This document shows, piece after piece, positions 7,168-28,653 of a stretch of DNA of 32,204 nucleotides. Both the position numbers and the translations under genes were made by a program. The DNA comes from a virus. The number at the start of each line of letters is the position of its first letter. Position 1 is the first letter of the stretch. The notes under the pieces were generated by a model. It was given only the letters and a program-made list of their open reading frames with translations, made no database searches and was not told where the DNA came from. The stretch covers positions 1 through 32,204 of IMG/VR virus record IMGVR_UViG_3300037586_002662, one strand, 5' to 3'.

Positions 7168-7279
7168 AATAATAGTTTAGTAAATTTGTAACAAGTGTAT
7201 TGAAAGATTCGCCTTTGCTTCCAAGATCTAGCAACCTTTGATGATTTTCCGCTGAGATTTTAATTATTTTTCCTTTCAT
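7151..7279 (-). CDS. Ribbon-helix-helix transcription regulator (42 aa)
   Basis: 42 residues from ATG 7279 (MKGKIIKISAENHQRL...). The strand KGKIIKIS, helix AENHQRLLDLG, turn and helix SFNTLVTNLL form the canonical RHH fold of MetJ/Arc/CopG and archaeal VapB-type proteins. There is no ribosome-binding site, but a TATA box lies 27 nt upstream, which suits a leaderless first gene. It precedes and overlaps the primase-helicase gene, so it probably controls replication gene expression. No toxin gene is adjacent, so an antitoxin role is unlikely. The repeated TGTC element at 7348-7371 is a likely binding site. Confidence 0.8.
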   Translation of the reverse strand: MKGKIIKISAENHQRLLDLGSKGESFNTLVTNLLNYYCEQNK

Positions 7280-7300: not shown

Positions 7301-7312
7301 CTTATATATAAA
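7301..7312 (-). promoter_or_regulatory. Archaeal TATA box, leaderless promoter for the RHH-primase operon
   Basis: The minus strand reads TTTATATATAAG centred about 27 nt before the ATG at 7279. Archaeal TATA boxes sit about 26-27 nt before the transcription start, so transcription would begin at or next to the ATG. No Shine-Dalgarno is present there, consistent with a leaderless mRNA. Confidence 0.75.
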
Positions 7313-7347
7313 GGTTTTGAGCCCACTTCTCAGTGAAATTTGGGTAT

Positions 7348-7371
7348 ATGACATATATGACAAATAAGACA
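7348..7371 (-). promoter_or_regulatory. Operator-like element A: three TGTC units spaced 9 bp
   Basis: Minus strand: TGTCTTATT, TGTCATATA, TGTCAT in tandem, each TGTC exactly 9 bp from the next. It lies about 36-70 bp upstream of the TATA box of the RHH gene. A copy matching at 21 of 24 positions sits at 20775-20798. Roughly one helical turn between units fits side-by-side RHH dimers; the binder is inferred. Confidence 0.65.
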
Positions 7372-7378
7372 GAAATAA

Positions 7379-7528
7379 TCACCTATGGTTCACCAATTTT
7401 TGAACCTTACAGAAAACACAATAAAAAATAAAACCTTTCTCTTCTAGTTCTCGATCTACCACAGTCACAAAACTACAACAAGAACACTCCACTTTTCTCC
7501 ACTTATTAATTCTTTCCCACTTACTCAT
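7379..7528 (-). CDS. Small zinc-ribbon protein (49 aa)
   Basis: 49 residues. The sequence carries CSCC at 15-18 and CVFC at 37-40, separated by 18 residues with alternating hydrophobics: a classic small zinc ribbon. The start overlaps the preceding stop as ATGA at 7525-7528, the coupling style of this genome. It is the last gene before the RHH promoter. No family name can be given; zinc ribbons of this size usually act as nucleic-acid-binding or transcription adaptor proteins. Confidence 0.65.
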   Translation of the reverse strand: MSKWERINKWRKVECSCCSFVTVVDRELEEKGFIFYCVFCKVQKLVNHR

Positions 7529-7773
7529 CTCCCACATCTATAATAAGTAACCCAATTAAAGAATTCACCTTGCTTTTTTTTAACCATCATCATATCCCCA
7601 CGATAAGGGCAAATAACGGGTGGTTGTTCATTAAGAAAATGGTAAGTACAATAAGCATCAAACTTACCAGCCTTATTTTTAGTTACCACCCGATGTGTTT
7701 TGTTCTGAACACAAATTGCGATTTGATAGTTCATACGCTGAACTATGTTCTCCAGTTCATAGCGTCTTTTCAT
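7525..7773 (-). CDS. Small cysteine-containing protein, probable zinc finger
   Basis: 82 residues starting at ATG 7773, immediately after the preceding stop. Cysteines at 21, 42, 55 and 80, with H45 next to C42 (CTYHF) and CPYRG at 55-59, could form one zinc site in a ribbon-like fold. The middle is basic (NKTHRVVTKNKAGK). No family recognised. It lies at the junction of the virion genes and the regulatory region, so it could be a late or middle regulator, which is a guess. Confidence 0.6.
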   Translation of the reverse strand: MKRRYELENIVQRMNYQIAICVQNKTHRVVTKNKAGKFDAYCTYHFLNEQPPVICPYRGDMMMVKKKQGEFFNWVTYYRCGR

Positions 7774-8598
7774 TTATTTTACATTAATTGGTAGTTCACT
7801 ATTGTTTGTAAATAGTAATGTTGTTGCATTAACAGAACCCCCAATAATGAAGTTTGGTGTATCAATTCCACTACCATTACCAATATAACTGTTAATAATC
7901 TTTAATGTGCCTACTTTAAAGTTTGAGATGATAATTCCTGCACCATAAGAATGAATATCTTTCAGAGTGAAAGTATTACAGATAGAATCACCAGCGGTAC
8001 TATCAATTATTATTCTATCAAAATCTGAACTTGAGATGTGAGGAATATCTATGGTTCCTCTTGTTGAACCAAACTTATAATCAGGTATTGATGAAGTTAA
8101 TGTTGAACTGAATGAATTACCGTCTGCTTCATTATTTTGAATAATTAAAGAGTATGCAGAACCGTTCTGAATAATTAATTCTGGCGTTTCTAAACCGTCA
8201 AGGATTAGAGTTTCACAGGTTAAATAATAATTTCCTCCTGTTAGTAAAAATGCTTCAGTCAACCCTGACTGTTTACCAACTTCAATATCTTCAAAATAAA
8301 AATTGTTTATCCTTCCACCACCTATTAACAAATTTAATGTTTGAGTATGTTGAGTAAGGTTATCATCTTTAAACCCACCATTTAATACTTCTTCCCCTAA
8401 ATCTTGTGCATATTTAACATCATAAATACCAGCTTTTGGGAAGAATATATATTCATCAGGTGAAAAGAATATTAAACAAAATAATCCAATGAATGAGAGA
8501 ATTACTACTCCTAACATCCACATTAACACCTTGTTTGCAGTAAGTGTTTTAAAAATACCACTAATTTTTGGTAGTCTTGTTTTCTTTTTTCTTACCAT
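7774..8598 (-). CDS. Membrane-anchored beta-helix-like protein
   Basis: 274 residues. A basic N-terminus (KKKTRLPK) precedes one membrane helix at about residues 24-45 (WMLGVVILSFIGLFCLIFF). The rest is a long repetitive beta-strand region with regular Asn/Gly turns (LIIQNGSAYSLIIQNNEADG, GIIISNFKVGTLKIINSYIG), typical of a right-handed beta-helix or similar solenoid. The predicted topology is cytoplasmic N-terminus with the beta domain outside. It follows the holin-like genes, overlapping the upstream one by 38 nt, and may be a surface or superinfection protein of infected cells, or a lysis accessory. No homologous family recognised. Confidence 0.6.
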   Translation of the reverse strand: MVRKKKTRLPKISGIFKTLTANKVLMWMLGVVILSFIGLFCLIFFSPDEYIFFPKAGIYDVKYAQDLGEEVLNGGFKDDNLTQHTQTLNLLIGGGRINNFYFEDIEVGKQSGLTEAFLLTGGNYYLTCETLILDGLETPELIIQNGSAYSLIIQNNEADGNSFSSTLTSSIPDYKFGSTRGTIDIPHISSSDFDRIIIDSTAGDSICNTFTLKDIHSYGAGIIISNFKVGTLKIINSYIGNGSGIDTPNFIIGGSVNATTLLFTNNSELPINVK

Positions 8599-8830
8599 TT
8601 TTAGTCCCCTTTAACATATTTTGTGCAACTGCCCCAATTATTATACTCACGGGGTTTGAAAATATTGCAAACGCTACAAGAATAATATCCAAATGAGGTG
8701 CAACTTCTACTGGATTTGTAGTTGTTTTCCAAATTATAAGTATTCCTAAGATAACAAAAGCTAAGATTATCGGTGCCGTCATTATCAAATTAACAAATTC
8801 TTGTCCACTTATTTGGGTTTCGTCTTTCAT
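8561..8830 (-). CDS. Small membrane protein, possible holin partner
   Basis: 89 residues from ATG 8830 (MKDETQISGQEF); a TTG at 8872 would extend into the upstream gene. Two membrane segments are predicted at about 14-34 (IMTAPIILAFVILGILIIW) and 46-70 (LDIILVAFAIFSNPVSIIIG), with a basic, polar tail. This is the size and topology of small two-helix holins. It sits between a holin-like gene and a membrane-anchored protein, so I place it in a lysis or membrane cassette. No sequence signature confirms this. Confidence 0.6.
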   Translation of the reverse strand: MKDETQISGQEFVNLIMTAPIILAFVILGILIIWKTTTNPVEVAPHLDIILVAFAIFSNPVSIIIGAVAQNMLKGTKNGKKKENKTTKN

Positions 8831-8843
8831 GAATTTTGTGCAA

Positions 8844-9032
8844 CTACCACTTAACAGCTTGTTTAGTAACAACTCTCAAAACTAAATTCGCAGCTGAACC
8901 AACAGTGATTATTCCACCAGCAGCTAAATGACCACTAAATGCTAAAAACAAACCACCTAACAAAGCAAGTCCATTAACCCATACAGTTTTGGAATGCCAC
9001 CAAATTTTCTTAATTTCTTTTTTCTTTGCCAT
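8844..9032 (-). CDS. Holin-like small membrane protein
   Basis: 62 residues with a perfect GGAGG before ATG 9032. After a basic start comes HSKTVWVNGLALLGGLFLAFSG, a second hydrophobic segment AAGGIITVGSAANLVLRVV, and a C-terminal TKQAVKW. The order Ser-Lys-Thr-x-Trp-Val-Asn ... asparagine-Leu-Val-Leu-Arg ... Thr-Lys ... Trp is a layout I recognise from small phage holin-like proteins with two membrane helices. In a tailed virus it would permeabilise the cell membrane at the end of infection. It lies directly after a methyltransferase and a transglutaminase-like enzyme. Its activity in an archaeal membrane is untested inference. Confidence 0.65.
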   Translation of the reverse strand: MAKKKEIKKIWWHSKTVWVNGLALLGGLFLAFSGHLAAGGIITVGSAANLVLRVVTKQAVKW

Positions 9033-9033
9033 T

Positions 9034-9660
9034 TTATTCCTCCTTGTTTATTTCAACAGCGAAACAGTTATGATCTCCAACCATTTCAATTTTACTTAAA
9101 CTATCAATCTTAAAATTCTCGTGTCCCACTAACTCCTTGATATTACTCATTAATTCTGTTAACGTAAAAAAGTGAAGATGTCCTGGACACCATAAATTTC
9201 TTTCAATTGGAACAGTAAATAATACTTTTTTTTTAGCAACCCTAAGCATCTCAGCCAAAGCCAAGTAAGGTTGTTCCAAATGCTCTAACACTTGACTAGC
9301 CACCACTACATCAAACTCTCCATCTTTAGCATCAATGTCAAGGATATTTCCAACAGAAACATTGTTGTCTAATCTTTCATTACAAAACTCAACTGCACAT
9401 TTACTTATATCAAAACCCGTTGCAACAATAGATTTATGCTTTCTAAGTTGGTATAAAAATATACCACACCAGCAGCCACAATCAAGTACACTATCATTTT
9501 TATTAATAGCTCTAAAAATCCACCTATGCCTATTCTCCACATAACTATCTTTAAGTAATTCAAACATGTGAGCATGTTTTTTAAAATCTTTATCATAGTA
9601 AGCCGCCTCTTCTCCACTTACCGGTCTTTGGGTCTCTGCACAAATAGACATCTTCTTCAT
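9034..9660 (-). CDS. Class I SAM-dependent methyltransferase
   Basis: 208 residues with the full Rossmann methyltransferase pattern: motif I VLDCGCWCG (58-66), acidic D84 in GFDIS for the SAM ribose, a GNILDID segment (105-110), and FDVVVASQVLEHLEQP (116-131), followed by HLHFFT (161-166), common in Methyltransf_11/12-type enzymes acting on small molecules, lipids or sugars. DNA methyltransferase motifs (DPPY/NPPY) are absent. Its ATG overlaps the stop of the transglutaminase-like gene. Substrate unknown; modification of a virion or cell-surface glycan or lipid is possible. Confidence 0.85.
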   Translation of the reverse strand: MKKMSICAETQRPVSGEEAAYYDKDFKKHAHMFELLKDSYVENRHRWIFRAINKNDSVLDCGCWCGIFLYQLRKHKSIVATGFDISKCAVEFCNERLDNNVSVGNILDIDAKDGEFDVVVASQVLEHLEQPYLALAEMLRVAKKKVLFTVPIERNLWCPGHLHFFTLTELMSNIKELVGHENFKIDSLSKIEMVGDHNCFAVEINKEE

Positions 9661-10445
9661 ACTTCTCCTCTATCCACTTCAAAAACTTCTTTAGGCATTG
9701 TTCCCATATACCTTTTATTACCATAACTTTGCTTCGTATCAGTTGACCACCAAATTTCATAATAATCACGCTCCTCTTTGTGTGTCCTTCTTTCTGCAAT
9801 CTTTGCATACGAAGGATAATAACACCAGTCTAAAACGATGGCCTCATCATCAAATTCCCTAAAATATGACACATAAGCGTGTCCAACTGTCCCACCATAA
9901 GGTTCTCTTACATCTCCCGCATTCAACCTCACTCGCCAATAAGGAATGTTGTTTGCCATAGCAATAGCCCAGATTAAAATTGCTCCGTCTTCACAATCTC
10001 CTTTACCGTGTTTCAATGTTTGGTAAGGGTAAGCCCAATACTCTTCAGTCTTATACTCAGAGGTATCTGAAATATATTTTATGTTTTCAATGACCCAGAT
10101 AAGAATCCTTCTCATCTTGGTATCATTACTCCCAGTAAATTTTGGATAAATATAATCAGGCATACAAAAGGATCTTACATCAACTTGATAAGTCCCATCT
10201 GTCTCATGCCTTACATAATTTATATTCTTCTTAGGATGTTTGTTAATCCAAAACTCCTCAACTTTGTCCACTCTCCTCTTCTCTTTACATAACTCAGCTT
10301 CCTTCTTAAAACCATCTCTCTCTTTTTTTATCAATTTGATATTTTCAAACTGTTTCTTCCACTCGCCCTTCAGATACTCGTGAGTTGCAACTAACAAATC
10401 ATAGTTCTTAATTGCGTGTATCCAATGTTTGAGTTTAGTTATCAT
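9657..10445 (-). CDS. Transglutaminase-like cysteine protease-fold protein, candidate lysis enzyme
   Basis: 262 residues. An N-terminal coiled coil (about 15-60) precedes a transglutaminase-like domain at about 105-230 with the expected catalytic triad: C151 in KGDCEDGA, H189 in VGHAYVSY and D206 in IVLDWCYY. No signal peptide or membrane segment is seen. The fold covers peptidases, transglutaminases and amidases; in archaeal viruses the pseudomurein endoisopeptidases PeiW/PeiP belong to it. Two holin-like genes follow after the methyltransferase, so a cell-envelope-cleaving role is plausible. A structural or tail-associated protease role cannot be excluded. The start overlaps the fibre gene upstream (ATGA). 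Confidence 0.75.
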   Translation of the reverse strand: MITKLKHWIHAIKNYDLLVATHEYLKGEWKKQFENIKLIKKERDGFKKEAELCKEKRRVDKVEEFWINKHPKKNINYVRHETDGTYQVDVRSFCMPDYIYPKFTGSNDTKMRRILIWVIENIKYISDTSEYKTEEYWAYPYQTLKHGKGDCEDGAILIWAIAMANNIPYWRVRLNAGDVREPYGGTVGHAYVSYFREFDDEAIVLDWCYYPSYAKIAERRTHKEERDYYEIWWSTDTKQSYGNKRYMGTMPKEVFEVDRGEV

Positions 10446-11689
10446 CCGTAATAAGCCCCATAAGAAGTTATGCTATCTTGTTCAGTATCATTAGCCCTAG
10501 TTATAGTCATTCTAACCCTAAAACTTGTTCCAGTGTTAGATACTTCTGCTAAAACACCTTCAGTAACAGCTAACCAATTAGTACCACCATCAAAACTAAT
10601 TTCATAAGCAATAGTATTTCCAGCGGTTAAAGTATAATTTGCTTTAACAATACCAACTGTTTCATTGGTAGTTATTGTTGTTGAATCGGTTGTTATACTA
10701 CAAGTTAAATCTGATTCTGTTGCTGCTGTGATTAATGGGATTGACCCAGTAGCAAAGAAATCATAATCATATTCTCCACTCCAAGAGAAGTTTCCACTGC
10801 CCGTTCCTGCTGCCCAACTGATTGTTGTAGCTACTAAGAAGATTGCGTTTGTTGAACCTCCTTTAGCACAAGAATATGTCAAATGTTTTGCTCTACCGTT
10901 AATTGTAATTGTATCATTTAATACAAAGTTTGCTTCTTCCGCACTTGTATCATCCCCGTATTCATCAGATGAAGCTGGTGTAGTCAATCCATTACAACTA
11001 GCAACATTAACTGATGAACTTGTTGGAAATTCTATATTAGAATAACCAACTGTGCCTGATGAACCACAAGAAGAAGAACTACACGCCGACCAACAACTAC
11101 TATTATTAGAAGTTCCTCCCAGTGTTCCAACTTTAGTACCTGAATAATCCTGACCTGATGAATAACCCGAACTTCCTGGACCATTTACATATGTACATCT
11201 TTTTCCAATATCTCTAGAATCTGCTGATTTAATTGCAGTAATAGAAACAAAATTATTCATTACTTTTGCAGTTGTTGCATCCGCTGTATTAGTTGGCAAC
11301 CATAGCCATTCCATCACCTCAGCTCTGTTAACTTCTAAAGTTCCTGCACTAGCAAAAACAATCCATTTACCAGCAGAAACTTGTGCAATTGTAACATTTC
11401 CTGCTGAAGAAGCAGTTGTGCTTGTTGCTTCAATAAATAGATAATAAGTTGTTGATGTATCTTGACACTCATATAAATCAGTTCCTGAATTATACTCCAT
11501 AAAAGTTAGATATTGTGCTGTGTTCGAACCAAATAAATCTAATTTTAAATTATTTTGACTTGTTGTTGTTTCACCATCCAACCCAAAATTAATCATATTA
11601 CTTAACATAAAACTTGCGTTACTTAACACATCATCAGCTGAAGCTGTGTCTCCATTCTCAAAAAATTTTAAACCATTTGTTATTGCCAT
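10442..11689 (-). CDS. Tail fibre/receptor-binding-type virion protein
   Basis: 415 residues, rich in Ser, Thr, Gly and Ala with strand-forming repeats, as in tail fibre and adhesin proteins. A conserved-looking front half (MAITNGLKFFENGDTASADD...) is followed by NRAEVMEWLWL, similar to a WL motif repeated in the neighbouring gene. Residues about 165-235 form a Ser/Gly patch with five cysteines (165, 199, 203, 208, 232). The last 100 residues are immunoglobulin-like strands (YEISFDGGTNWLAVTEGV). Start ATG 11689 has GAGGT upstream. Place in the cluster, after the tail hub genes, suits a distal tail protein. Confidence 0.65.
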   Translation of the reverse strand: MAITNGLKFFENGDTASADDVLSNASFMLSNMINFGLDGETTTSQNNLKLDLFGSNTAQYLTFMEYNSGTDLYECQDTSTTYYLFIEATSTTASSAGNVTIAQVSAGKWIVFASAGTLEVNRAEVMEWLWLPTNTADATTAKVMNNFVSITAIKSADSRDIGKRCTYVNGPGSSGYSSGQDYSGTKVGTLGGTSNNSSCWSACSSSSCGSSGTVGYSNIEFPTSSSVNVASCNGLTTPASSDEYGDDTSAEEANFVLNDTITINGRAKHLTYSCAKGGSTNAIFLVATTISWAAGTGSGNFSWSGEYDYDFFATGSIPLITAATESDLTCSITTDSTTITTNETVGIVKANYTLTAGNTIAYEISFDGGTNWLAVTEGVLAEVSNTGTSFRVRMTITRANDTEQDSITSYGAYYG

Positions 11690-11700
11690 TTTAATTTACC

Positions 11701-12702
11701 TCATAAGACAGTTATTACATCATACTCATATACTTGGAACAATGCAGTTTTAGATATTTTAGCGAACTTTTGTTCAACAAATAAATCTCCACTTGCCGCT
11801 GCATTGAACAATCCAGATTTGTATAAATCTTGACTTGTTGCTTCACTTGCAGCTAACAATGCTTCATAAGTTACCACTGTGTTGACTCTACTCGTTGTTG
11901 TAAAAGCATTCCTCTCTTGTTCTCCTTCTAATGTTGTATCTGCTATTGCTGGATTTGTTGTCCCTGTTCCCCACGCAGTCTCTATTGGGGCTGTTGCTGA
12001 AGCTGCACCCAACCAATCCCTCATTTCATTAAGTCCTACTGTTGTCCAAATACCTCTTCCGGGAGTAGTATCATACCAAGTAGTATCAACAGTAAATCTA
12101 TAATTATTGGCATTGGTCATTGTTAAGCTAGTAATAATATAACGAGAATATAAATCTCCACTTGCCGCTGCATTAAAAACACCTACTTCCCTCATAGCTG
12201 AACCATGCAAAGAAGTATCAATTGAATTAACAATACAAATTTTTGTAGTTACTGAATTAGTTGAAAGAGTCCTACTATCAATCGCCTTTCTTCCAACTGC
12301 TGTTTCTAAAGCAGTATCATCAACAGTATAAGCTGTGCTTCCTGTACCAAACCCAAAGTGAGAGGGAGCAGTTGCTGCTTCTCCACCTAACCATTTAGCA
12401 ATTTCTACTCTCCCAGCATTTGTAACTGATTGAGCAACAGTAATTGTTTCAACTGTGGAATAAGAAGGAAGAGATCCACCCCATGTGGAAGTACCATACA
12501 CCCCTTTACTTGGATTTCCCCAAATCATTGCAGAACCAATAACTTGACTTTCAACTAGTATTCTTGTATTTTTAACAGTAAGTTCATAACTACCAAAAAC
12601 AAATCTTGTATTAAGAGTTCCCGGTTTAATTAACTCTGTCTGCATACTCTTCTTATCAGTAACAGATTTACCAATAGTTTTTCCAAGTTCTTTAACTGCC
12701 AA
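11701..12702 (-). CDS. Tail fibre/baseplate-type protein with an internal duplication
   Basis: 333 residues starting at TTG 12702, chosen because GAGGTG lies just upstream and no ATG fits. Two homologous halves can be seen. Around residues 95-195 is VEIAKWLGGEAATAPSHFG, a GTGS turn, DDTALETAVGRKAI and later SAMREVGVFNAAASGDLYSR. Around 220-320 is MRDWLGAASATAPIETAWG, DTTLEGEQERNA and YKSGLFNAAASGDLFVEQ. This duplicated beta domain is of a kind I have seen in phage fibre and baseplate proteins. It overlaps the hub gene by 11 nt. Probably a tail-tip or fibre attachment protein; no enzyme motif. Confidence 0.65.
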   Translation of the reverse strand: MAVKELGKTIGKSVTDKKSMQTELIKPGTLNTRFVFGSYELTVKNTRILVESQVIGSAMIWGNPSKGVYGTSTWGGSLPSYSTVETITVAQSVTNAGRVEIAKWLGGEAATAPSHFGFGTGSTAYTVDDTALETAVGRKAIDSRTLSTNSVTTKICIVNSIDTSLHGSAMREVGVFNAAASGDLYSRYIITSLTMTNANNYRFTVDTTWYDTTPGRGIWTTVGLNEMRDWLGAASATAPIETAWGTGTTNPAIADTTLEGEQERNAFTTTSRVNTVVTYEALLAASEATSQDLYKSGLFNAAASGDLFVEQKFAKISKTALFQVYEYDVITVL

Positions 12703-14239
12703 GGGTCACCTCGTCTTCTTCTAAATTTAATCTTGTTTCATCAACAGAATATTCAATTTCTGTTAATCTTAATTTTTTACCTGAAATACCAAAACTACCA
12801 ACAGTAACAGTATAAATATCTCCTAAGGCATAAGTGTTTGCATCTGATCCATAATCCATAGTTACTGTTATTTTGTATCGTGGTTTATTCTTTTGGTCTA
12901 TAACTTTCTTTGCCGCAAACCAACCCTGCCATTGTGCTTCATCCCAAATATTATTGTTAAAAGCAGTATCTGTACCAGCAGTTGCTACAGTTCCTGAAGG
13001 AACTCCAACTGCACTTCTTGTATCAAATTGCATACTATAAGGTCCAGCATAACTGGTTGGATAACTAGCAGTCCTAACTAAAACCCCACTTGTTTGTGAT
13101 TGTGTTGCCCAATTACCTGAATTATTAGTAAACTCATTGTTAATCAAAGCTTCCCCTATTGTATTTGTTGAAGTAATATACTCCCACTTACTCCCACTTC
13201 CTGCTCCACTTGTCCAATCAAAATAAGGAAACTCCATTCCGTTCCCTTCACAATCAAAACCAGCGTTATAAATTGCCGCATTAACCACATCTTCTGTATC
13301 TTTCTTTGGTTTTACTTCTGTGATTGCATCTGTTCCTTCAACAATAGTATCGGAAGAAGAAGTAGGTTTTGCTTTCCAATTGAACTCATACCTATCATCT
13401 GTTGCATTATAAACAATGTAATAGATATATTGACCATTGCCTGTGTGTTTATCTGAAGACAAATCATCAATAACTTCAATCGCACTTTTGTAACTCATAG
13501 TGTAGTTAACTTGAACCGAAGTTGTATCATTACCAATATTAGTCCATTCTGTTGAGTCTTGCCCATAGATTGTCCTATCTTGATTAAATTCATTTAGTTG
13601 CCCAATAACATCTTGAATAAAATCGTGAGAATTATTCAATGAAACTCCTGGTTTAGTAAATACCAACCCGTTAAATAATTGAGACATAAAACTTTCTCCT
13701 CTAACACTCAAACTTCTCCTGTTAAAATTAAAAGTACCATTAATAGAAGAGATTATTCCTTCATCTATTATATCACTATCAGTAAAAGTATCTGTATTCT
13801 TTATTCTATAAATCCTAATTAAATCATCAGCTTCTATAACAGGATATTCTACTTTAATATTGCCTATACCTGTCGTTGGAGCCCCCACAAAAGTTAATGT
13901 TGATCCAGAAATAGTGTATTCAGTAGTGTAAATTTGTAACACACCACCAACATAAACAAAACATTTCTGTTCTGTTCCATCAACATGTTGACTTGGAAGT
14001 GGCCCAAAATCTAATGTAAAAGCAGTAGTTGCCCCATCTCCATCATAAAAGGTTTCAAAATACTTATTGTTAGCATTTAACACACCAAAATTAAAAGTAT
14101 CTTTCTTCTTACCAACTGCTCTTGTTACTTCTATGTCTCCAGCATCAGCTAAAGTAATAGCATTCGCTGCTGTAGCCCACGAATTAGTTGTAGTTATTTT
14201 CTTCCTAACCTGTACTCTCATACGACTATAATTTACCAT
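12692..14239 (-). CDS. Tail hub/baseplate-like protein
   Basis: 515 residues. The gene follows the distal tail gene and precedes the fibres, the usual place of the gp27/late-control-D-like tail hub. Residues about 1-60 and 140-520 look like a hub: alternating strands, MSYKSAIEVIDDLSSD, IVYNATDDRYEFNWKA and a C-terminal LTEIEYSVDETRLNLEED. Between them (about 63-135) sits an apparent inserted beta domain (YDGDGATTAFTLDFG, VYVGGVLQIYTTEYTISGS) of a type common in phage fibres. ATG 14239 lies 1 nt after the previous stop. Hub identity is inferred from order and general pattern. Confidence 0.6.
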   Translation of the reverse strand: MVNYSRMRVQVRKKITTTNSWATAANAITLADAGDIEVTRAVGKKKDTFNFGVLNANNKYFETFYDGDGATTAFTLDFGPLPSQHVDGTEQKCFVYVGGVLQIYTTEYTISGSTLTFVGAPTTGIGNIKVEYPVIEADDLIRIYRIKNTDTFTDSDIIDEGIISSINGTFNFNRRSLSVRGESFMSQLFNGLVFTKPGVSLNNSHDFIQDVIGQLNEFNQDRTIYGQDSTEWTNIGNDTTSVQVNYTMSYKSAIEVIDDLSSDKHTGNGQYIYYIVYNATDDRYEFNWKAKPTSSSDTIVEGTDAITEVKPKKDTEDVVNAAIYNAGFDCEGNGMEFPYFDWTSGAGSGSKWEYITSTNTIGEALINNEFTNNSGNWATQSQTSGVLVRTASYPTSYAGPYSMQFDTRSAVGVPSGTVATAGTDTAFNNNIWDEAQWQGWFAAKKVIDQKNKPRYKITVTMDYGSDANTYALGDIYTVTVGSFGISGKKLRLTEIEYSVDETRLNLEEDEVTLGS

Positions 14240-14240
14240 T

Positions 14241-14903
14241 TTATACTGTTTCAGTAAAAGTCATTGTATAATTCCATCTTGCCCCAAACTGTTCATCTCC
14301 TGTTGCAATACTTATATCTGCACTATCAACTGCTACACTCAATGTATTCAACAAAGTATTACTCCCTGTCTTAACATATCCTGCTGTTGGTCTCCCTTTC
14401 AAAGCAGTTTTAATTTCATATCCTTCTCCACTCGTAAAAATATCGGTATCAACAGATAAGATAGTTCCACTATCAACTGCACTAATTGTTGCATAAGTCC
14501 CATCTGTTGTATTTATTGCTATTTTACCAGAAGCATTAGAAGTAAATGAAGCAGTTGAATCTACCAGTTTACTTGCTGAAGTAGATGTTGTTGTTCCTGA
14601 ATACAAATTCCCAGTTGGAATTACTAAAGTAATTGGAGTCGTGCTAACTAATGTTGCAAAATCAACCATCAAATCTTGGTTCATTGTGTTAGTTCCAATA
14701 TTGTTAACATCAATAATCCCTCTAATAATGATGGGTGAATTTTCATACCCTTCTGCACTTGTCTCTTTAATATCATAAGTCCCCAATATTGGTTTCTTAC
14801 TAATATTATTCTTCCAACTCCAAGTAACATCAACACCATTCATCTCTACTGCTGTTCCACTATTAACACTGGCGTGTTTAATCAAAATATCTGCTGTAAC
14901 CAT
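14241..14903 (-). CDS. Distal tail-like protein with inserted beta domain
   Basis: 220 residues, directly downstream of the tape measure, the position of distal tail proteins in siphoviruses. N-terminal strands (ADILIKHASVNSGTAVEMNGVD) and C-terminal strands (RWNYTMTFTETV) would form the core. Residues about 100-165 (SASKLVDSTASF, GKIAINTTDGTYATI, SGEGYEIK) form a separate beta module that recurs in many virion proteins of tailed viruses and looks inserted. No enzyme motif. The assignment rests on synteny and composition. Confidence 0.6.
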   Translation of the reverse strand: MVTADILIKHASVNSGTAVEMNGVDVTWSWKNNISKKPILGTYDIKETSAEGYENSPIIIRGIIDVNNIGTNTMNQDLMVDFATLVSTTPITLVIPTGNLYSGTTTSTSASKLVDSTASFTSNASGKIAINTTDGTYATISAVDSGTILSVDTDIFTSGEGYEIKTALKGRPTAGYVKTGSNTLLNTLSVAVDSADISIATGDEQFGARWNYTMTFTETV

Positions 14904-14905
14904 CT

Positions 14906-16357
14906 TTAATTCTTAGCAACCTCCATATTAATTACCTTAGCAACCTGTTCTGCTAATTGTCTTGCATCTCCAAGTGTATCTATATTTATCACCAAATCAA
15001 TCACTTTAGAGGCTTTATTGTAATCATCTTTTCCAAAATAATCAAATTTGTTTTTGTCAAATTCCTTGCTAATATATTCTCTCGCTCCACTAAAATCAAC
15101 TTTCCCAATATCTCCAATTGTAGATCCACCAACTACTGACATCACTTTGTTATAAATACTCAAAACAGAGTTTATTTTACTAATCAAAAAGTTTATTCCT
15201 TTCTCAACAAGCCAAATTAATCCTTGAGTAAAGATTTTACCAATATCATTTGTTAAGTTTTTCATAAAGAGTAATACATTGGCTATTGCTAAGATTGCTC
15301 CTAACATAATCTTATACATTAATCTTGTTAATGCTAATGCCGCTTTAGTAATATGTTCAACAAAACCATCAAAGTCACCATTAAGCAAATCAATTAATGA
15401 CTTCCATATTTCTGAAACAATAGTTTTTACTCCCCCAAAAGCATCTTTTACAAATGATGAAATAACACCAAATGTATCTTTAACAAAATCAGCAAACCCA
15501 CCAAAGTTTGTTTTCCACAGAAGTATCGCTACTAAAATTGCAGCGGCAATAATTCCTAATGGAACAAGAAGTGCTGAAAATGATGATCCAAGACCACCCA
15601 TTGAAGTAATCAATCCTTTAATTGCTAATCCTACTGGACCTTTAAACAAAGTAACTATTCCATTGAATAGTAATACAAATTGTGAACCAAAGAACATGAA
15701 TGCTCCAAGTGCAATCCCTAATGCAATTATCCCTGCTACCAACTTTGGGTTTTTTTGAACCCACTTAGAAACAGCCATAACAATCCTTTCTATTTTAGGC
15801 ATAAGTGGTCCAAGTGCTCTATTAATTGCCGAACCTATAACAAATTTGAGATATTCCCACCACCCACCTAATCGCTGGATAGCTGTCCCTTGAATATTTG
15901 CACTCTCCATAATTTTCTTAAATGAAGCAGTAGCAGACTTAGCTATAGAAGTGAATATTCTTTGAAGTTGCATACCAAAAAACATAAATGAAAGGAACTC
16001 CATACGGAATCTTTGAAACGCACCAGTTAAGGTATTTGTAGTTTTTCTTGCTTTCTTCATCTTAGGAATTAGTTGTGTTAATCCTAAAGATCCCATCACT
16101 CCTTTCGTAGTTACTTTATGAAGACCTTGAAATACTTTGGTTGTTTGCCTTGCTTTTGCAGAAGCCTTATCTAAATGGGCTTGCATATCTCTGGTGTTAA
16201 ATTCTCTAAATTTATTTAAACCAACATCAAATATTGGATTCTTGAGTTTAGAAAGATTCCTTAACTTTGCCATCCTACTAATAAGTGTGTCAATATTTTT
16301 GATTGCACCAGCAGTATTAGCAGTAACAAACAATCCCAATCTACTCTCAAGTCCCAT
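14906..16357 (-). CDS. Tail tape measure protein
   Basis: 483 residues, the longest mostly helical protein of the tail cluster, immediately downstream of the two overlapping chaperone frames: the classic tape-measure position. Residues 1-140 are basic amphipathic helices; about 205-280 form several hydrophobic segments (AGIIALGIALGAFMFFG, LVPLGIIAAAILVAILLW) and about 335-370 more (AILAIANVLLFM). Hydrophobic patches are typical of tape measures, which can insert into the host membrane. Length sets tail length; using the usual 0.15 nm per residue this predicts a tail near 70 nm. Start ATG 16357 has GGAGA upstream. Confidence 0.88.
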   Translation of the reverse strand: MGLESRLGLFVTANTAGAIKNIDTLISRMAKLRNLSKLKNPIFDVGLNKFREFNTRDMQAHLDKASAKARQTTKVFQGLHKVTTKGVMGSLGLTQLIPKMKKARKTTNTLTGAFQRFRMEFLSFMFFGMQLQRIFTSIAKSATASFKKIMESANIQGTAIQRLGGWWEYLKFVIGSAINRALGPLMPKIERIVMAVSKWVQKNPKLVAGIIALGIALGAFMFFGSQFVLLFNGIVTLFKGPVGLAIKGLITSMGGLGSSFSALLVPLGIIAAAILVAILLWKTNFGGFADFVKDTFGVISSFVKDAFGGVKTIVSEIWKSLIDLLNGDFDGFVEHITKAALALTRLMYKIMLGAILAIANVLLFMKNLTNDIGKIFTQGLIWLVEKGINFLISKINSVLSIYNKVMSVVGGSTIGDIGKVDFSGAREYISKEFDKNKFDYFGKDDYNKASKVIDLVINIDTLGDARQLAEQVAKVINMEVAKN

Positions 16358-16369
16358 TTTTAATGTCTC

Positions 16370-16570
16370 CTATTTCTTTTTAGCCATTTTACTTTGTTTC
16401 TTTTCTTCCTTGTTAAGCTCGTCAACAATAACTCCATAAGCTGAAATGGGCAAGGTCATCATTTGCTCCCAAGACCAACCCATTTCCTTCATAACAATAA
16501 CCATTGTATGAATTAACTTATTTGAATTATTGTTTTTTAAGCGGTGTATTCTTTTTCGCAACTCCATCAT
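16370..16570 (-). CDS. Tail assembly chaperone, downstream (T-like) frame
   Basis: This frame lies between the G-like gene and the tape measure and overlaps the former by 44 nt in the +1 frame. Its functional part reads MKEMGWSWEQMMTLP, AYGVIVDELNKEEKKQ and a Lys-rich tail, the pattern of T domains that recruit the tape measure. Its only early ATGs (16570, 16567) lie inside the G frame without a good ribosome-binding site, so I expect it to be made mainly as a G-T fusion by frameshifting. A fusion through the A6 run would be about 156-157 residues. Independent initiation is not excluded. Confidence 0.7.
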   Translation of the reverse strand: MMELRKRIHRLKNNNSNKLIHTMVIVMKEMGWSWEQMMTLPISAYGVIVDELNKEEKKQSKMAKKK

Positions 16571-16841
16571 CTAAACCATTAACTCTCATAATTGCTTCTG
16601 AAAGTTCTTGAAAATGTGCTATTGCCACACCTTCTATTTCTTCATCGGTTGCTTCTGGAACACTATTCTTCAAAGTAAGCTTTATCAATGAAGTAATTGC
16701 CTTAGCTTGTTTGGCAGAGTCTTCGCTCCCCAAATTAACAATTACATCCATATCTTTCATTGTTAAAGGTTTAATCAATAATGATTCTCCTTCAATTTTA
16801 ACTTCTACAGGTTTCCCTATTAATTTACTTAATCTACTCAT
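16527..16841 (-). CDS. Tail assembly chaperone, upstream (G-like) frame
   Basis: 104 residues: a short beta start (SKLIGKPVEVKIEGESLLIKPLTMKDMD) followed by helices (AKQAKAITSLIKLTLKNSVPEATDEEIEGVAIAHFQELSEAIMRVNG). This matches the length, charge and order of siphovirus tail chaperones such as lambda gpG, which coat the tape measure during assembly. It ends PLKKQ, and its final codons contain an A6 run where the T-like frame can be entered. ATG 16841 overlaps the preceding stop (ATGA). Confidence 0.8.
   Translation of the reverse strand: MSRLSKLIGKPVEVKIEGESLLIKPLTMKDMDVIVNLGSEDSAKQAKAITSLIKLTLKNSVPEATDEEIEGVAIAHFQELSEAIMRVNGLDDGVAKKNTPLKKQ
16533..16538 (-). other. Probable programmed frameshift site (A6)
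   Basis: In the G frame the minus strand reads CTT AAA AAA CAA TAA. A lysine tRNA on AAA can slip +1 (or -2) and still pair with AAA, entering the T frame at AAC AAT AAT. The site is 2-4 codons before the G stop, as expected for low-efficiency fusion. An alternative A5 run lies at about 16554-16558. Confidence 0.55.
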
Positions 16842-17131
16842 TTTTGTCCTCCACTCCCAAGTGTCTTAGGAGCTTTCTTTTCGTTCTGTTCTTCTAATGT
16901 TTGTTTAAGCTGTTCTACTTCTACCTTCAACTCATTGTACTGCTCAAACAACATTAACTCTTTAGCATTCCCTTTCATCCCATCTAACAATAATTTAAGC
17001 CCAAAAGCATAGTTATCATTAGTCTCTTTCTTACAGTATTCCGAAAAAGCCTTAAATATCTTTAACGGACATTTGGTAATACTAAAATTTATTGTTGTTA
17101 AATTCTCAACCTTCTCTTTCACTTCACCCAT
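16838..17131 (-). CDS. Hypothetical protein with C-terminal coiled coil
   Basis: 97 residues, strong GAGGTG before ATG 17131. Residues 10-50 (INFSITKCPLKIFKAFSEYCKKE) suggest a small strand-helix domain; residues 58-88 (LMLFEQYNELKVEVEQLKQTLEEQN) form a coiled coil; the end is Lys/Gly-rich. It lies just upstream of the tail chaperones, overlapping by 4 nt. The N-terminal part loosely resembles a ribbon-helix-helix but lacks clear agreement. Function unknown. Confidence 0.6.
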   Translation of the reverse strand: MGEVKEKVENLTTINFSITKCPLKIFKAFSEYCKKETNDNYAFGLKLLLDGMKGNAKELMLFEQYNELKVEVEQLKQTLEEQNEKKAPKTLGSGGQK

Positions 17132-17366
17132 TTTTCACCTCGACCAGCCAAAACTGCTGTGTCTTATCTTTGAATATTTTGAAATCTTCTGTTAATGGGA
17201 AAAAGTGGTCACATATTTCATAGTAACAAGTATCTTCGCATCGGATCATAATGTTCTCTTTCCCTGCTTCGTTTAATCTTTTCACTCCTTTAAACCCTTC
17301 TCTTTTTGGGAATTCAATTTTTTCTAATTTCATAATCCTTTTCATCATATCTGCTTTTGATACCAT
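17124..17366 (-). CDS. Hypothetical protein (80 aa)
   Basis: 80 residues with GAGGTGG upstream of ATG 17366; it starts inside the end of the glycosyltransferase gene. The N-terminus is helical and basic (KADMMKRIMKLEKIEF). The C-terminal half has aromatic strands (CYYEICDHFFPLTEDF, TQQFWLVEVKNG) and three cysteines (43, 47, 52), so a small metal site is possible. Family not recognised. It may belong with the glycosyltransferase cassette or with the tail genes that follow. Confidence 0.55.
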   Translation of the reverse strand: MVSKADMMKRIMKLEKIEFPKREGFKGVKRLNEAGKENIMIRCEDTCYYEICDHFFPLTEDFKIFKDKTQQFWLVEVKNG

Positions 17367-18343
17367 TCGTGTCCACCTCTATCAAACGCTATTTCACAAG
17401 CATCTTTCCATCTCTTCACACTATTTTCATAGTTAAACCATTCAACTTCTTTCTTAGCTCTCGCCATAATTTCTTTTACTTTGTCAGGTTGTTCTCTAAC
17501 GAATTTGAACACCCTCTCAGTGTCTTTGTAATCATACGGGTCAACTGTCAACTCAGGCATAAGTTTGTTGTATGACCAAACTCTGTTGCTTCCAATAACA
17601 GGTTTACCTACACAAGCCATCTCAACACCATTTCTTCCATAAGTGTGATAAGCACATGGATCATAAATCACACTCTCTCCTTGAAGTCTTTGCATGTAAT
17701 CTGGAAAATCCATAAGCTCTGCTTTCTTATCAAACATAAACCTGTTAAATTTCCGCATTAAATCAGCAGACTCTTTGTAAGCATAAACTGTTGTTTTACC
17801 AACCAGTCCTTTTTCTTTCATCTTGTTTAACATACGAGAAGGAATATAACTTTCCCCGTGCCACCAATGATAAAGAAACCCCACAGACTTAGACCCAGCA
17901 TCTAAGTCTGTTCCCATCCTCTTCAAATATTTTGTGTTGGTAGGGTGAGGTATTGTAAAAGTACCGTCTAACATATTGGAAACTTGGTGTGGTTCTGTAC
18001 TAAAAACCATATCGCCCATCCTTTGTATGTTGTCATACTTGTATGGATCAATCTGCCACCTGTTCCAACATTCAGGAACATAATCATTATTCAATATTAA
18101 CTTCGTTGAACTATTCCTCAATCTCCTTCTTATCTCAGGAATAAAAGGCATATCAACAGGAGTCATATTAACCTGAACTTGGTCATAATCTTCCAAATTA
18201 TCTTTTATTTGGTTAAATGCATTAATCTCTCCTCTATGTGCAAATATCCAATTAAACATTCCAGACCTTGCAGGTTGTTCTTCTAACGCTCTTGCAATAT
18301 GTTCTGGTACTTCATTTCCACCAACTATCAAACTAAATTTCAT
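17345..18343 (-). CDS. GT-B fold glycosyltransferase (GT4-like)
   Basis: 332 residues from ATG 18343 (MKFSLIVGGNEVPEH), with GGTGG upstream; a GTG at 18355 is less likely. N-terminal Rossmann-like half: FSLIVGG, WIFAHRG, KLILNNDYVP, TFTIPHPTN. C-terminal half holds the donor-binding pattern of family 1/4 glycosyltransferases: YDPCAYHTYGRNGVEMACVGKPVIGSN (about 227-253, quoted in two parts of the same stretch) followed by VREQPDKVKEIMARAKK. It transfers a sugar from a nucleotide donor. It sits in the middle of the tail genes with a sugar-type methyltransferase, so virion glycosylation or host surface glycan alteration is likely. Acceptor unknown. Confidence 0.82.
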   Translation of the reverse strand: MKFSLIVGGNEVPEHIARALEEQPARSGMFNWIFAHRGEINAFNQIKDNLEDYDQVQVNMTPVDMPFIPEIRRRLRNSSTKLILNNDYVPECWNRWQIDPYKYDNIQRMGDMVFSTEPHQVSNMLDGTFTIPHPTNTKYLKRMGTDLDAGSKSVGFLYHWWHGESYIPSRMLNKMKEKGLVGKTTVYAYKESADLMRKFNRFMFDKKAELMDFPDYMQRLQGESVIYDPCAYHTYGRNGVEMACVGKPVIGSNRVWSYNKLMPELTVDPYDYKDTERVFKFVREQPDKVKEIMARAKKEVEWFNYENSVKRWKDACEIAFDRGGHEWYQKQI

Positions 18344-18504
18344 TTCGTTTTCCACCTTTTCATATTTAAATCAGTCTTATCCCGTTCCTTGTAGCAGGGA
18401 AGGGTGTGAGGGTTTCCAATGGTGGAACGGGAAGAAGACCTGACCTCGCACACATTGTGTACATGATATGGGAAATCCAATATTCCCACTTTTGAAATGC
18501 TCAT
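18340..18504 (-). CDS. Small protein between methyltransferase and glycosyltransferase (54 aa)
   Basis: 54 residues starting MSISKVGILD, with C19 and C37 as the only cysteines and a basic end (NMKRWKTK). I choose this frame because both ends overlap neighbours as ATGA: its ATG overlaps the methyltransferase stop and its TGA overlaps the glycosyltransferase start. Two other frames across the same DNA are also open, one giving a 46-residue protein with CGG and CTQC. The region is more GC-rich than its surroundings and contains a 9-bp inverted repeat. Which frame is used is uncertain; function unknown. Confidence 0.5.
   Translation of the reverse strand: MSISKVGILDFPYHVHNVCEVRSSSRSTIGNPHTLPCYKERDKTDLNMKRWKTK
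18380..18432. repeat. 9-bp inverted repeat in a GC-richer patch
   Basis: TCCCGTTCC (18380-18388) pairs perfectly with GGAACGGGA (18424-18432) across a 35-nt loop. The patch stands out in AT-rich DNA. It may be an RNA stem within the methyltransferase-glycosyltransferase message or simply coding sequence. There is no T-tract, so it is not a typical terminator. Confidence 0.5.
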
Positions 18505-19082
18505 ACAAACCACCACACATTTGAAAAGACTTGAAGGTGTTTGTTATTTTTGTAAGCATAATCAATTACTGCTTTTCTAACAGTATATTCTCTTAATTTA
18601 TTGTGCCAATTCCAATCATCTCCAATAATCACTGCGTCAGGAAAATATTTCATTGAATCAACTATGTCATGCATTGCTCCATTGTAATCGTGAGCTGCGT
18701 CAATATAAATGACATCTGGTTTCATCTTCATTTCATAACACTCTTTTAACCCTTGTTTTGTACTCATCCTACATACTTTAACTCTATCTTTGAAATCCCA
18801 CATATTAACTAAAAATGTTTCATACAAATTTAATAACTTATCTTTAACATCTTCTCTCCCTTTATGTCCAGGATTTCCTTCCCAGTGGTCTATTGCAACA
18901 ACAGTAGCATTCGGTGCTTGTTTTGCAATAAATCTGGTTGATTTACCTAGCCAAGAACCTAACTCAATAACTAACTTAGTTTTGTCATTAAGGTAAGCTT
19001 TTAACACTTGTTCATTTGCTTTTTGAAACCACCCGTGTTCATCAGCTGGTACATTTGGTTTTTTGTCAGGCCATTCATTCAT
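18501..19082 (-). CDS. SAM-dependent methyltransferase (Methyltransf_24/TylF-like)
   Basis: 193 residues. ATG 19082 is set by GGAGGA upstream. Motif I is VIELGSWLGKS (38-48), the ribose-binding acid is D65 in VAIDHW, then VIYIDAAHDYNGAMHDI (124-140) and IIGDDW (152-157). The AAHDY and GDDW positions are typical of metal-dependent sugar O-methyltransferases and cephalosporin hydroxylase-like/Methyltransf_24 proteins. Together with the following glycosyltransferase it probably builds or caps a methylated glycan. The first gene after the tail-tube terminator. Confidence 0.82.
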   Translation of the reverse strand: MNEWPDKKPNVPADEHGWFQKANEQVLKAYLNDKTKLVIELGSWLGKSTRFIAKQAPNATVVAIDHWEGNPGHKGREDVKDKLLNLYETFLVNMWDFKDRVKVCRMSTKQGLKECYEMKMKPDVIYIDAAHDYNGAMHDIVDSMKYFPDAVIIGDDWNWHNKLREYTVRKAVIDYAYKNNKHLQVFSNVWWFV

Positions 19083-19105
19083 CTTCAATTCCTCCAAATT
19101 AAAAT

Positions 19106-19132
19106 AAAAAAAAATGTAAGCTTAATGCTTAC
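19106..19132 (-). terminator. Stem-loop plus T9 terminator after the tail tube gene
   Basis: On the minus strand GTAAGC, loop ATTAA, GCTTAC (19127-19132 with 19116-19121) is followed after one base by nine T (19106-19114). The TAA stop of the tail tube gene is inside the first arm. It should limit read-through from the abundant tail-tube message into the glycosylation cassette. Confidence 0.8.
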
Positions 19133-19812
19133 GTTACATACGCTCCAGTCCAACTTCTTGTGGTTGTTACTGACCAAGTCAAACTTCCCCTTGCTTTGTC
19201 AATTAAACCTTTTCCTAAAGAAGTAGTCATTGTTGCCAAAGTTGTTCCTGCTGAAGTTCCTACACCTACACCTTCATCTTCAATGTAGTTTGGGTATCCA
19301 TCTGGATCAGTAGCTGAGAACTCAAAGTTCAAAGTTCCCTTAAAGTATTCATCTGCACTAAATTCTTTGTCAAAAGTAATTGCCTTACAATCAACAAATA
19401 CCATACGATAAATACTTGCAGCAACAGCTGGTACAGTAATTGTTCCAGTTGACAAATGACTAGCTGCACTTTGGAACCAAAAGATTATTCTCCATTGGCT
19501 AGGTACTTGGTCTGAACTAACAACTCTTCCAGTCATAGCACCTATTGTAGCTCCACTTGTTCCACTTCCAAATTGAACATAGTCAAAGTCACTTGTGTTA
19601 ATCATTACTTCAAATGATAAACTAAACTTCTCCCGTGGTTTCTGGAAGTTAAATGTTTTATTTCCAAATGCAAAAACCTCATCTGTTGATGATGTTCCTC
19701 CACTTACATTCCAGCTCAGCATCTTTCCTTCTACATTATAGACTAATGCTTTGCCGTTTTCTTCAAACGTAATTATTACGTCTTCTCCTTCAAAATGATC
19801 TGGTAATGCCAT
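19129..19812 (-). CDS. Major tail tube protein
   Basis: 227 residues with GGAGG before ATG 19812. The sequence has the tail-tube layout: N-terminal strands (EDVIITFEENGKALVYNVEGKMLSWNVSGG), a central domain (FNFQKPREKFSLSFEVMINTSDFDYVQFG) and a strand pair with FSADEYFKGTLNFEFSATDPDG before the C-terminus, as in gpV-like tubes. Length, position between tail terminator and chaperones, and its own strong terminator all agree. It polymerises around the tape measure to form the tail tube. Confidence 0.82.
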   Translation of the reverse strand: MALPDHFEGEDVIITFEENGKALVYNVEGKMLSWNVSGGTSSTDEVFAFGNKTFNFQKPREKFSLSFEVMINTSDFDYVQFGSGTSGATIGAMTGRVVSSDQVPSQWRIIFWFQSAASHLSTGTITVPAVAASIYRMVFVDCKAITFDKEFSADEYFKGTLNFEFSATDPDGYPNYIEDEGVGVGTSAGTTLATMTTSLGKGLIDKARGSLTWSVTTTRSWTGAYVT

Positions 19813-19854
19813 TTTATATTATCCTCCTAATATTGTTTTTTATCGTGTCAATCA

Positions 19855-20325
19855 TCATTTTCTTCCAAATACAATTCTTCTTTCAAATTCTCTTGCTACT
19901 TGTTTAGTATCACTTCTAAACTGCCTCATCGATTTAGACCAAAAATTTGTCGGTTTATTTTGAGGGTGTGGTTTCTTACTAAAAATGGGGTTATTCGGTT
20001 GATGATAATCAGATTTTTCTGTTCCTTTCTCAACAATTATAGGTAAGATTTTACCATACTTATCTCCTCTCTCATCAAAAAAGACTTTATGTCCTCCAGT
20101 AAATTTCTTTTTATGCAACCTCCTCCTTAAAGGAGTTGGAGTATTGTGATTAGTTAACCCAATATCTGGGTGTTTATGTGAAGGTATATTCCGAGAGACA
20201 ATTTGCTTAAACCTAAGTGCCAATGCATCAGTCATCTTATTTGGCTCTGTCTTCATCCTTTTCCTAATTCCATTATATATTTTAATGGAATTGTCTATAC
20301 CAACTCCCCTTATATCTAGTCTCAT
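19855..20325 (-). CDS. HK97 gp10-like tail completion protein
   Basis: 156 residues, strongly basic, beginning MRLDIRGVGIDNSIKIYNGI, with a helical N-terminus and FWSKSMRQFRSDTKQVAREFERR near the end. The form is that of HK97 gp10-like proteins: N-terminal amphipathic helix, a basic Gly/His-containing middle (SHKHPDIG, HKVFFDERGDKYGKIL) and a C-terminal helix. It starts inside the preceding stop (ATGA), between the tail terminator and tail tube genes as usual. It joins tail to head or completes the tail. Confidence 0.7.
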   Translation of the reverse strand: MRLDIRGVGIDNSIKIYNGIRKRMKTEPNKMTDALALRFKQIVSRNIPSHKHPDIGLTNHNTPTPLRRRLHKKKFTGGHKVFFDERGDKYGKILPIIVEKGTEKSDYHQPNNPIFSKKPHPQNKPTNFWSKSMRQFRSDTKQVAREFERRIVFGRK

Positions 20326-20741
20326 GCAACATAAAAGAAAGTCACATCAAAAGTAGCTCGATGCCTCTTCTTCTTTCCCTCCGACCAACTATCATTATCT
20401 CCTCCACTAATCTCCATTCGCTTATACCCAGCTGAAGCAAATGTTGCTCTACCTGCAATAAGTTTTGCAACAACATCATCTTTTAACGATTTGAGACTTG
20501 CTGAAGAAGTGTGATAAATTTCGATTGTCATAACAATCTCTGATTGAGTGAGTTGGCCACCAACAGTAAGTTTATTCATACTGCTAGAAGGGGGAGAGAT
20601 AATAACAAGAGGATACCCTTTTGTTTTGATTAATGTAGAATTAAATGCACTAAAAATATTGTTTGTGCCAATTGCGTTTGTAGTCTGCAGATAGGTATAA
20701 ACACTATCCCAAACATCCGTATTCAAAGTTGCTTTCGCCAT
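20322..20741 (-). CDS. Tail terminator protein
   Basis: 139 residues (MAKATLNTDVWDSVYTYLQTTN...). The pattern of an N-terminal helix, KGYPLVIISPPSSS, a strand SEIVMTIEIYHTSSASLKSLKDDVVAKLIAG and a closing strand RATFDVTFFYVA matches the gpU/gp9 tail-terminator fold, an alpha-beta sheet protein that caps the tail tube as a hexamer. Start ATG 20741 has GGAGT upstream. It is the first gene downstream of the operator/promoter region at 20775-20820, so it may begin an independently regulated tail transcript. Confidence 0.7.
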   Translation of the reverse strand: MAKATLNTDVWDSVYTYLQTTNAIGTNNIFSAFNSTLIKTKGYPLVIISPPSSSMNKLTVGGQLTQSEIVMTIEIYHTSSASLKSLKDDVVAKLIAGRATFASAGYKRMEISGGDNDSWSEGKKKRHRATFDVTFFYVA

Positions 20742-20774
20742 GAGTTTAACTCCAATTCACTTGGTTTGTCCCAA

Positions 20775-20813
20775 ATGACATTAATGACATATAAGACAAG
20801 ATGTATGTCTTAT
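20775..20813 (-). promoter_or_regulatory. Operator-like element B with inverted half-site
   Basis: Minus strand: TGTCTTATA, TGTCATTAA, TGTCAT (20775-20798), matching 21 of 24 positions of the element at 7348-7371 and keeping the 9-bp spacing of TGTC. In addition ATAAGACA (minus strand 20806-20813) forms an 8-bp inverted repeat with TGTCTTAT across 7 bp. This is one of the few non-coding gaps in the virion operon. Confidence 0.65.
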
Positions 20814-20820
20814 TTATAAC
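20811..20820 (-). promoter_or_regulatory. Possible TATA box of an internal tail-gene promoter
   Basis: GTTATAAATA on the minus strand lies about 27 nt before the middle of operator element B. Transcription would start inside the element near 20788, giving a leader of about 45 nt with the GGAGT ribosome-binding site of the tail terminator gene. The overlap suggests repression. Inferred from spacing only. Confidence 0.45.
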
Positions 20821-20826
20821 TCAGTA

Positions 20827-21216
20827 TCACCATTGAGAAGTGACATCTTCCCGTGATACAGTAATTATCTGCACAACAAGCGTATCCTGAGTTCTAACGG
20901 GTCTAATTGAAATAACCCTATATTCAATCGAATCTACTGTTAATCGGTCATTGACAACAACAGTCACATCATCTCGAATAATCTTTTCATCTTCACCAAG
21001 AGATTCCATTCCCTGCATCTCTTGACTTAATTCTTCAGTCACATTATCTCCATCAACTACTTTAATAGAAGTAGCACTTCCCCAATTAGATACTGCTACA
21101 TCTCCTTCCTCACTTTCTGTTTTAGTCGCAGAGCTATAGGTGTAAAGAGAACCTGTATTCCCAAAGGTATTAATCAAGTTCCTTGCTGCTGTTCTCAAGC
21201 TGGTAGATAAAGTCAT
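20827..21216 (-). CDS. Head completion/stopper protein
   Basis: 129 residues with GGAGC before ATG 21216. N-terminal helix (RTAARNLINTFGNTGSLYTYSS) followed by beta strands (SIKVVDGDN, IIRDDVTVVVNDRLTVDSIEYRVISIRPVRTQDTLVVQIITV shown here only by its ends). The arrangement of a short helix and a small barrel with xxYRVISIRP fits SPP1 gp16/HK97 gp7-like stoppers that close the portal channel before the tail docks. Synteny agrees: after the connector adaptor and before the tail terminator. Confidence 0.65.
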   Translation of the reverse strand: MTLSTSLRTAARNLINTFGNTGSLYTYSSATKTESEEGDVAVSNWGSATSIKVVDGDNVTEELSQEMQGMESLGEDEKIIRDDVTVVVNDRLTVDSIEYRVISIRPVRTQDTLVVQIITVSREDVTSQW

Positions 21217-25500: not shown

Positions 25501-25544
25501 TTTATTGTCCTCCATCCTTAAATCCTGTTACCATTTTTCAACTC

Positions 25545-27284: not shown

Positions 27285-27295
27285 TTTTTATCCTC

Positions 27296-28588: not shown

Positions 28589-28653
28589 TTTGAGACCTCC
28601 TTGATTTCAAAGTAAAGACCGCTATACAGAGGTGACAGCATGCCTCATCAAAC

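Follow-up and report, generated by a model that had tools for sequence, protein, structure and literature searches.

The archaeal virus RHH repressor SvtR (SIRV1) controls its own gene and a tail-fibre gene from sites about 80 bases upstream of the TATA/BRE elements, and a second such protein, F55 of SSV1, recognizes direct repeats arranged in tandem at a number of viral promoters, its own included (PMC5569661). Dimers of the RHH protein omega (ParB) of pSM19035 occupy short contiguous units in mixed orientation (PMC9499535), and the stoperators of mycobacteriophage L5 are dispersed among promoters and short intergenic spaces with a bias in orientation (PMC9283540). Outside a few model systems, the timing of head, tail and replication genes in archaeal tailed viruses is largely obscure.

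The DNA analyzed here (the window) is a whole IMG/VR virus record of 32,204 bases and of unspecified completeness, and it carries two arrays of TGTC units. SvtR offers the parallel of a viral RHH protein that controls both its own gene and a virion gene, and the distance of its sites from the promoter resembles the geometry at the primase site of the window. However, SvtR recognizes imperfect inverted repeats with a different sequence, and conserved sites inside coding DNA are not described for SvtR (PMC5569661). F55 resembles the window arrays in its use of tandem repeats, but these are 11-bp ATAGATAGAGT repeats at early promoters, whereas the window virus has 9-bp TGTC units at module boundaries. 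The short, mixed-orientation units of omega recall the swaps between TGTCA and TGACA described below, although the omega heptads (WATCACW) have a 7-bp period, come in 7-10 units and have a ParA partner. The L5 stoperators are 13-bp single asymmetric sites for a monomeric HTH repressor in bacteria. The arrays share with them a dispersed distribution in short intergenic spaces, beginning 0-8 bases past the stop codon of the head-closure gene Hc1 at seven junctions in other viruses, but do not keep a single orientation relative to transcription, since the tail and primase arrays are all sense and nearly all terminase-region arrays are antisense.

Arrays at the tail and primase positions

About 40 related IMG/VR contigs were recovered with a tail-side gene and the major capsid protein as queries, and 27 of these were read as whole contigs, the eight longest being 15-47 kb. 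No close isolated or cultured phage matched the window or its relatives, and alignments of the major capsid and terminase proteins against genome contigs gave no provirus relatives. The relatives form a single clade of metagenomic contigs, and the genomes counted below are therefore not independent. One contig (G025) is 100% identical to the terminal 2,208 bp of the window and continues the same virus outwards into the terminase gene. The features of the window are collected in Table 1.

Table 1. Arrays, promoter-like elements and genes at the tail and primase positions, with the candidate binding proteins
Feature	Position	Strand	Remarks
Tail-site array TGTCTTATATGTCATTAATGTC	20777-20798	minus	three TGTC units at 9-bp period; in the gap from head-closure to tail-terminator gene
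Imperfect fourth unit GGGACA	20767-20772	minus	downstream of tail array; also in G001, G003 and G004
Inverted half-site TGTCTTA (coding strand TAAGACA)	20806-20812	plus	similar in G001, not in other relatives
TATA-like box TTATAAATA	20811-20819	minus	upstream of tail array; this virus only
Predicted small hairpin CATTTGG-GACAAA-CCAAGTG	20758-20777	minus	directly 3' of tail array
Head-closure protein Hc1	20827-21216	minus	PHROG 161
Tail terminator (lambda gpU-like)	20322-20741	minus	first gene past tail array; AlphaFold model and PDB fold matches
Primase-site array TGTCTTATTTGTCATATATGTC	7350-7371	minus	upstream of RHH-primase operon; 7 bases after the stop of gene 7379-7537
TATA-like box CTTTATATATAAG	7301-7313	minus	about 30 bases ahead of RHH start codon; leaderless archaeal-type promoter
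42-residue RHH-like protein	7151-7279	minus	Pfam DUF7557, 21.8 bits (cutoff 25); in the window virus only
Primase-helicase-like protein	4828-7167	minus	conserved in G001 and G004
RHH-CC, an RHH-like protein of 97 residues (long C-terminal helix)	16838-17131	minus	proposed binder

A sequence-only reading of the window had described two sites, 7348-7371 and 20775-20798, as a shared three-unit operator. On direct reading the two, both on the minus strand, are indeed identical at 21 of 24 positions, and each holds three exact TGTC units 9 bp apart. Both arrays are intergenic, and a search of the whole record with the 9-bp-spaced motif returned them as its sole exact three-unit matches. The inverted half-site that had been noted at the tail site is also there (TAAGACA...TGTCTTA). 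A first-order Markov model gives an expectation of 0.005 exact arrays per window, and 0 of 400 simulations produced two; the window exceeds the expected number of exact arrays about 400-fold. Beyond the window, the same virus has a third exact array in the terminase gene (contig G025).

The unit is TGTC, extended in many sites to TGWCA, and repeats with a 9-bp period in three, sometimes four, copies. When all 4-mers were ranked at periods of 6-15 across 27 genomes, TGTC at period 9 was the commonest triple array, with 19 occurrences against 6 for the next independent one. TGWCA is palindromic except at its center, and unit 2 reads TGTCA or TGACA across the relatives, which amounts to a strand flip of the near-palindrome. 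Such near-palindromic, flippable units fit tandem binding by a dimer, as by RHH proteins; the short units, their spacing of no more than about one helical turn and their tolerance of flips are the features of a tandem RHH operator. The element diverges with the viral lineage; all three sites of one relative (G007), for example, contain TGTCACTWATGACA.

When the AlphaFold model of the first gene product past the tail array was compared with PDB folds, phage neck and tail-terminator proteins matched at E 1.8e-5 to 1e-3, and since this protein shares the fold of lambda gpU and further tail terminators, the array marks the head/tail boundary. Searching the relatives with the motif revealed arrays at the same two gene positions, head-closure/tail and primase operon. 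The gap between Hc1 and the next gene holds an array in 8 of the 11 distinct viruses, window included, that have this junction on the contig, and lacks one in the other three (G006, G019 and G023); the remainder of the spacer diverges while the array stays. At none of the seven other array-bearing junctions is there a TATA box comparable to that of the window. Because the TATA-like box occurs in the window virus alone, an internal tail promoter, which had been put forward as the purpose of this site, is not the conserved feature. Nor is overlap with, or proximity to, a TATA box or start site common to all arrays, those of the terminase gene being within coding sequence.

The glycosyltransferase/methyltransferase block of one relative (G001) separates the array from the tail terminator, while the array still adjoins the head-closure gene; judged from this gene order, the region of the array resembles a point of module exchange. 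The glycosyltransferase and methyltransferases occupy 14137-15129 of the oriented G001 contig (L006), and in the window they are found past the major tail protein. The hairpin 3' of the tail array recurs in several relatives with a varying stem and an ACRA-like loop. It is retained in G006, whose junction is without an array, and for that reason may be an element in its own right, situated where the head-closure gene ends.

An array stands upstream of the primase operon in all three genomes with a homologous primase (window, G001 and G004), in agreement with the earlier placement of site 7348-7371, and the G001 copy matches 15 of 15 TGWCA positions. The order in the window and in G004 is array, TATA-like box and small RHH-like gene; in G001 a zinc-ribbon gene occupies the place of the latter.

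Constraint on arrays in the terminase region

Nine relatives, G025 included, have an exact antisense array inside the gene for the terminase large subunit. Among eight array-bearing genomes, the third base is invariant in 10.2% of terminase codons gene-wide, whereas over the array the third bases of nine consecutive codons are all invariant. This difference argues for selection on the DNA itself. The codon ahead of the first unit is GCG, AAG, GAG or GTG, with a varying amino acid and a constant final G. No comparable invariant stretch of third bases was present in the other structural gene families scanned. Since dinucleotide shuffles alone understate chance when the period is a multiple of three, synonymous shuffles were used as the null model for coding DNA, and the 14 exact arrays observed there compare with 0.42 in the shuffles. 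Protein motifs in the terminase and zinc-ribbon genes (TSKTLET and DRYDNKD) were first suspected as the source of these arrays, an explanation that the synonymous-site test overturned for the terminase. The zinc-ribbon arrays, which a protein motif might explain in part, are less certain than the terminase ones.

An array lies between the terminase start and the major capsid gene in 16 of the 23 genomes that have both genes. Its position is flexible, with four placements across lineages, the alternatives to the interior of the terminase gene being a site close to the 3' end of that gene (G019), the gap between terminase and portal (G007 and G017) and the zinc-ribbon gene (G002, G015, G018 and G021). 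The longest contig (G004) has further arrays within minus-strand genes. Sites are about 7-15 kb apart, at 3-7 per genome.

At the level of sequence comparison, these data establish a conserved DNA element at module boundaries that is under selection even inside coding sequence and whose unit orientation is interchangeable. The boundaries concerned are the terminase-portal region (in reverse orientation), the head/tail junction and the region upstream of the primase operon. The simple two-site circuit drawn from the window must thus be enlarged by at least one further conserved site, in or near the terminase gene and in the opposite orientation.

Candidate binding proteins and models of array function

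The 42-residue RHH-like protein had been suggested as the binder of both sites. No homologue of it is detectable in the array-bearing relatives, and thus the sites are conserved and the protein is not, whereas each of the seven distinct genomes spanning the RHH-CC locus encodes RHH-CC, in every case among the genes past the head/tail junction. Conserved in RHH-CC is the pattern TTINFSITKCPLKxFKxF..NDNYAFGLKLLLD. The AlphaFold model of the protein consists of an extended strand, a helix at residues 23-36 and a helix at 41-85 (strand-helix-helix), a predicted architecture that would fit an RHH domain continuing into a coiled coil. The best PDB match of the model is the ArtA RHH-DNA complex (3gxq), at a non-significant E value of 2.3 and a probability of 0.54; ArtA, a small plasmid repressor, differs in that it lacks the long helix at the C terminus. 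A second match, to a MazEF antitoxin complex, is also not significant, Pfam found no RHH domain in RHH-CC, and PHROGs and PDB sequence searches gave it no name. From its conservation and its modeled fold we propose RHH-CC, rather than the 42-residue protein, as the candidate array binder. One relative (G006) has a divergent RHH-CC copy, yet is without an array at the canonical places. The idea of shared regulation is correct in outline, in that the two sites are one functional element conserved in relatives; the 42-residue binder and the general tail promoter are its probably mistaken details.

Other possible regulators were seen. G004 encodes two further RHH-like proteins (L065:15783-15929 and L067:6329-6607), one of whose genes sits between array and primase like that of the 42-residue protein of the window, without detectable homology to it. 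The window gene 25240-25515 encodes a 91-residue protein with a KorA/TrfB-like helix-turn-helix below cutoff and a related copy in G006; from this similarity it is another possible regulator.

The model we prefer, and consider evenly balanced between right and wrong, is that the arrays are dispersed DNA-level elements bound cooperatively by a viral RHH dimer, most likely RHH-CC, and that they block, insulate or loop between modules. Each unit would receive one virus-encoded dimer, with cooperative binding along the array, and the occupied array could then block, insulate or loop transcription between modules; archaeal-virus RHH repressors and mycobacteriophage stoperators offer analogues. Variants of this scheme would be repression of nearby promoters (primase and portal geometry), a block to elongation (tail gap and terminase) and loop anchoring (reverse orientation around the head module). 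The circuit would be autoregulatory, since the gene for RHH-CC belongs to the tail operon downstream of the array. No start codon is near the terminase-internal sites, an unusual situation for a simple operator, and a dispersed operator, roadblock or looping fits better than an internal tail promoter. It is tempting, if somewhat unlikely, that archaeal-type tailed viruses carry a dispersed code of module boundaries, in which RHH-bound 9-bp arrays of fixed orientation flank the head module in opposite directions, embedded in the terminase gene, and serve not as promoter operators but as transcription roadblocks or anchors of loops. If true, this would be the first stoperator-like or insulator-like system in archaeal viruses. 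The outcome is a sequence-defined element under selection within a coding gene, together with a named candidate binder, in a group for which no cultured member was found.

Several other explanations were weighed. Repressor-bound arrays between or inside genes might act purely as stoperator-like roadblocks, stopping elongation and silencing modules in a latent or early phase, and the placement of arrays right after stop codons in short gaps without visible promoters, as well as inside coding DNA under selection, would suit this, as would the fixed orientation at each position and the genome-wide occurrence of L5-type stoperators in short intergenic spaces, also in fixed orientation (PMC9283540). 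We nevertheless regard it as unlikely, given the few sites per genome compared with more than 20 in L5, the opposite orientations relative to one direction of transcription, unlike stoperators, and the fact that no lysogeny genes were identified. It is more doubtful that the 42-residue protein binds both sites, autoregulating the primase operon and controlling a tail promoter. Its gene immediately follows one array and a TATA box, SvtR likewise regulates its own gene and a tail-fibre gene (PMC5569661), and in G004 too a small RHH-like gene separates array from primase; but array-bearing relatives are without a homologue, the G004 counterpart is not detectably related, G001 has the array with a zinc-ribbon gene instead, and the TATA box at the tail site is not conserved.

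Similarly improbable is an architectural or partition-like role, in which the arrays would anchor looping, segregation or packaging of viral DNA instead of affecting transcription. The wide spacing of the sites and the flexible position of the terminase-region site are compatible with it, the long helix in the RHH-CC model could bridge dimers, and omega serves in partition as well as in repression through tandem units that differ in orientation (PMC9499535). However, no ParA-like ATPase was recognized among the proteins scanned, and omega needs at least four contiguous units to activate its ParA partner, whereas most arrays here have three. Nothing in the data links the element directly to a viral protein, and the binder might be a host DNA-binding protein; we doubt this to much the same degree, since the divergence of the element with the viral lineage suggests co-evolution with a viral binder, although different hosts could mimic that pattern. 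Very improbable is a role in RNA, as leader hairpins or as an mRNA binding site, because the arrays have the sense orientation at two of the positions and the antisense one at the remaining position. A hairpin does follow the tail array in several relatives, but unit flips keep the DNA palindrome and not an RNA motif. RNA structure as a common denominator was rejected, as there was no convincing consensus fold and no consistent hairpin at the primase sites.

Host assignment and other gene content

TATA-like sites in this virus group peak 20-29 bases ahead of start codons (17 of 36, compared with 3 of 42 in the control). This peak, together with the ERCC4 nuclease of the window and the ATP-dependent DNA ligase encoded in G004, points to an archaeal host. 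The nuclease gene (1878-2816) fuses an ERCC4-type domain to a homing-endonuclease-associated repeat. On the opposite strand, 31-939 encodes a VWA-domain protein whose G004 homologue adjoins two AAA ATPases, forming a VWA/AAA module.

The adjacent genes 7774-8598 and 8561-8830 are 93-97% identical to those of G001, compared with about 50-78% for other shared proteins, which suggests recent exchange. The terminase large subunit of G002 (26444-29740, L016) has 1,098 residues versus about 490 in relatives, and its insertion of about 600 residues is probably an intein.
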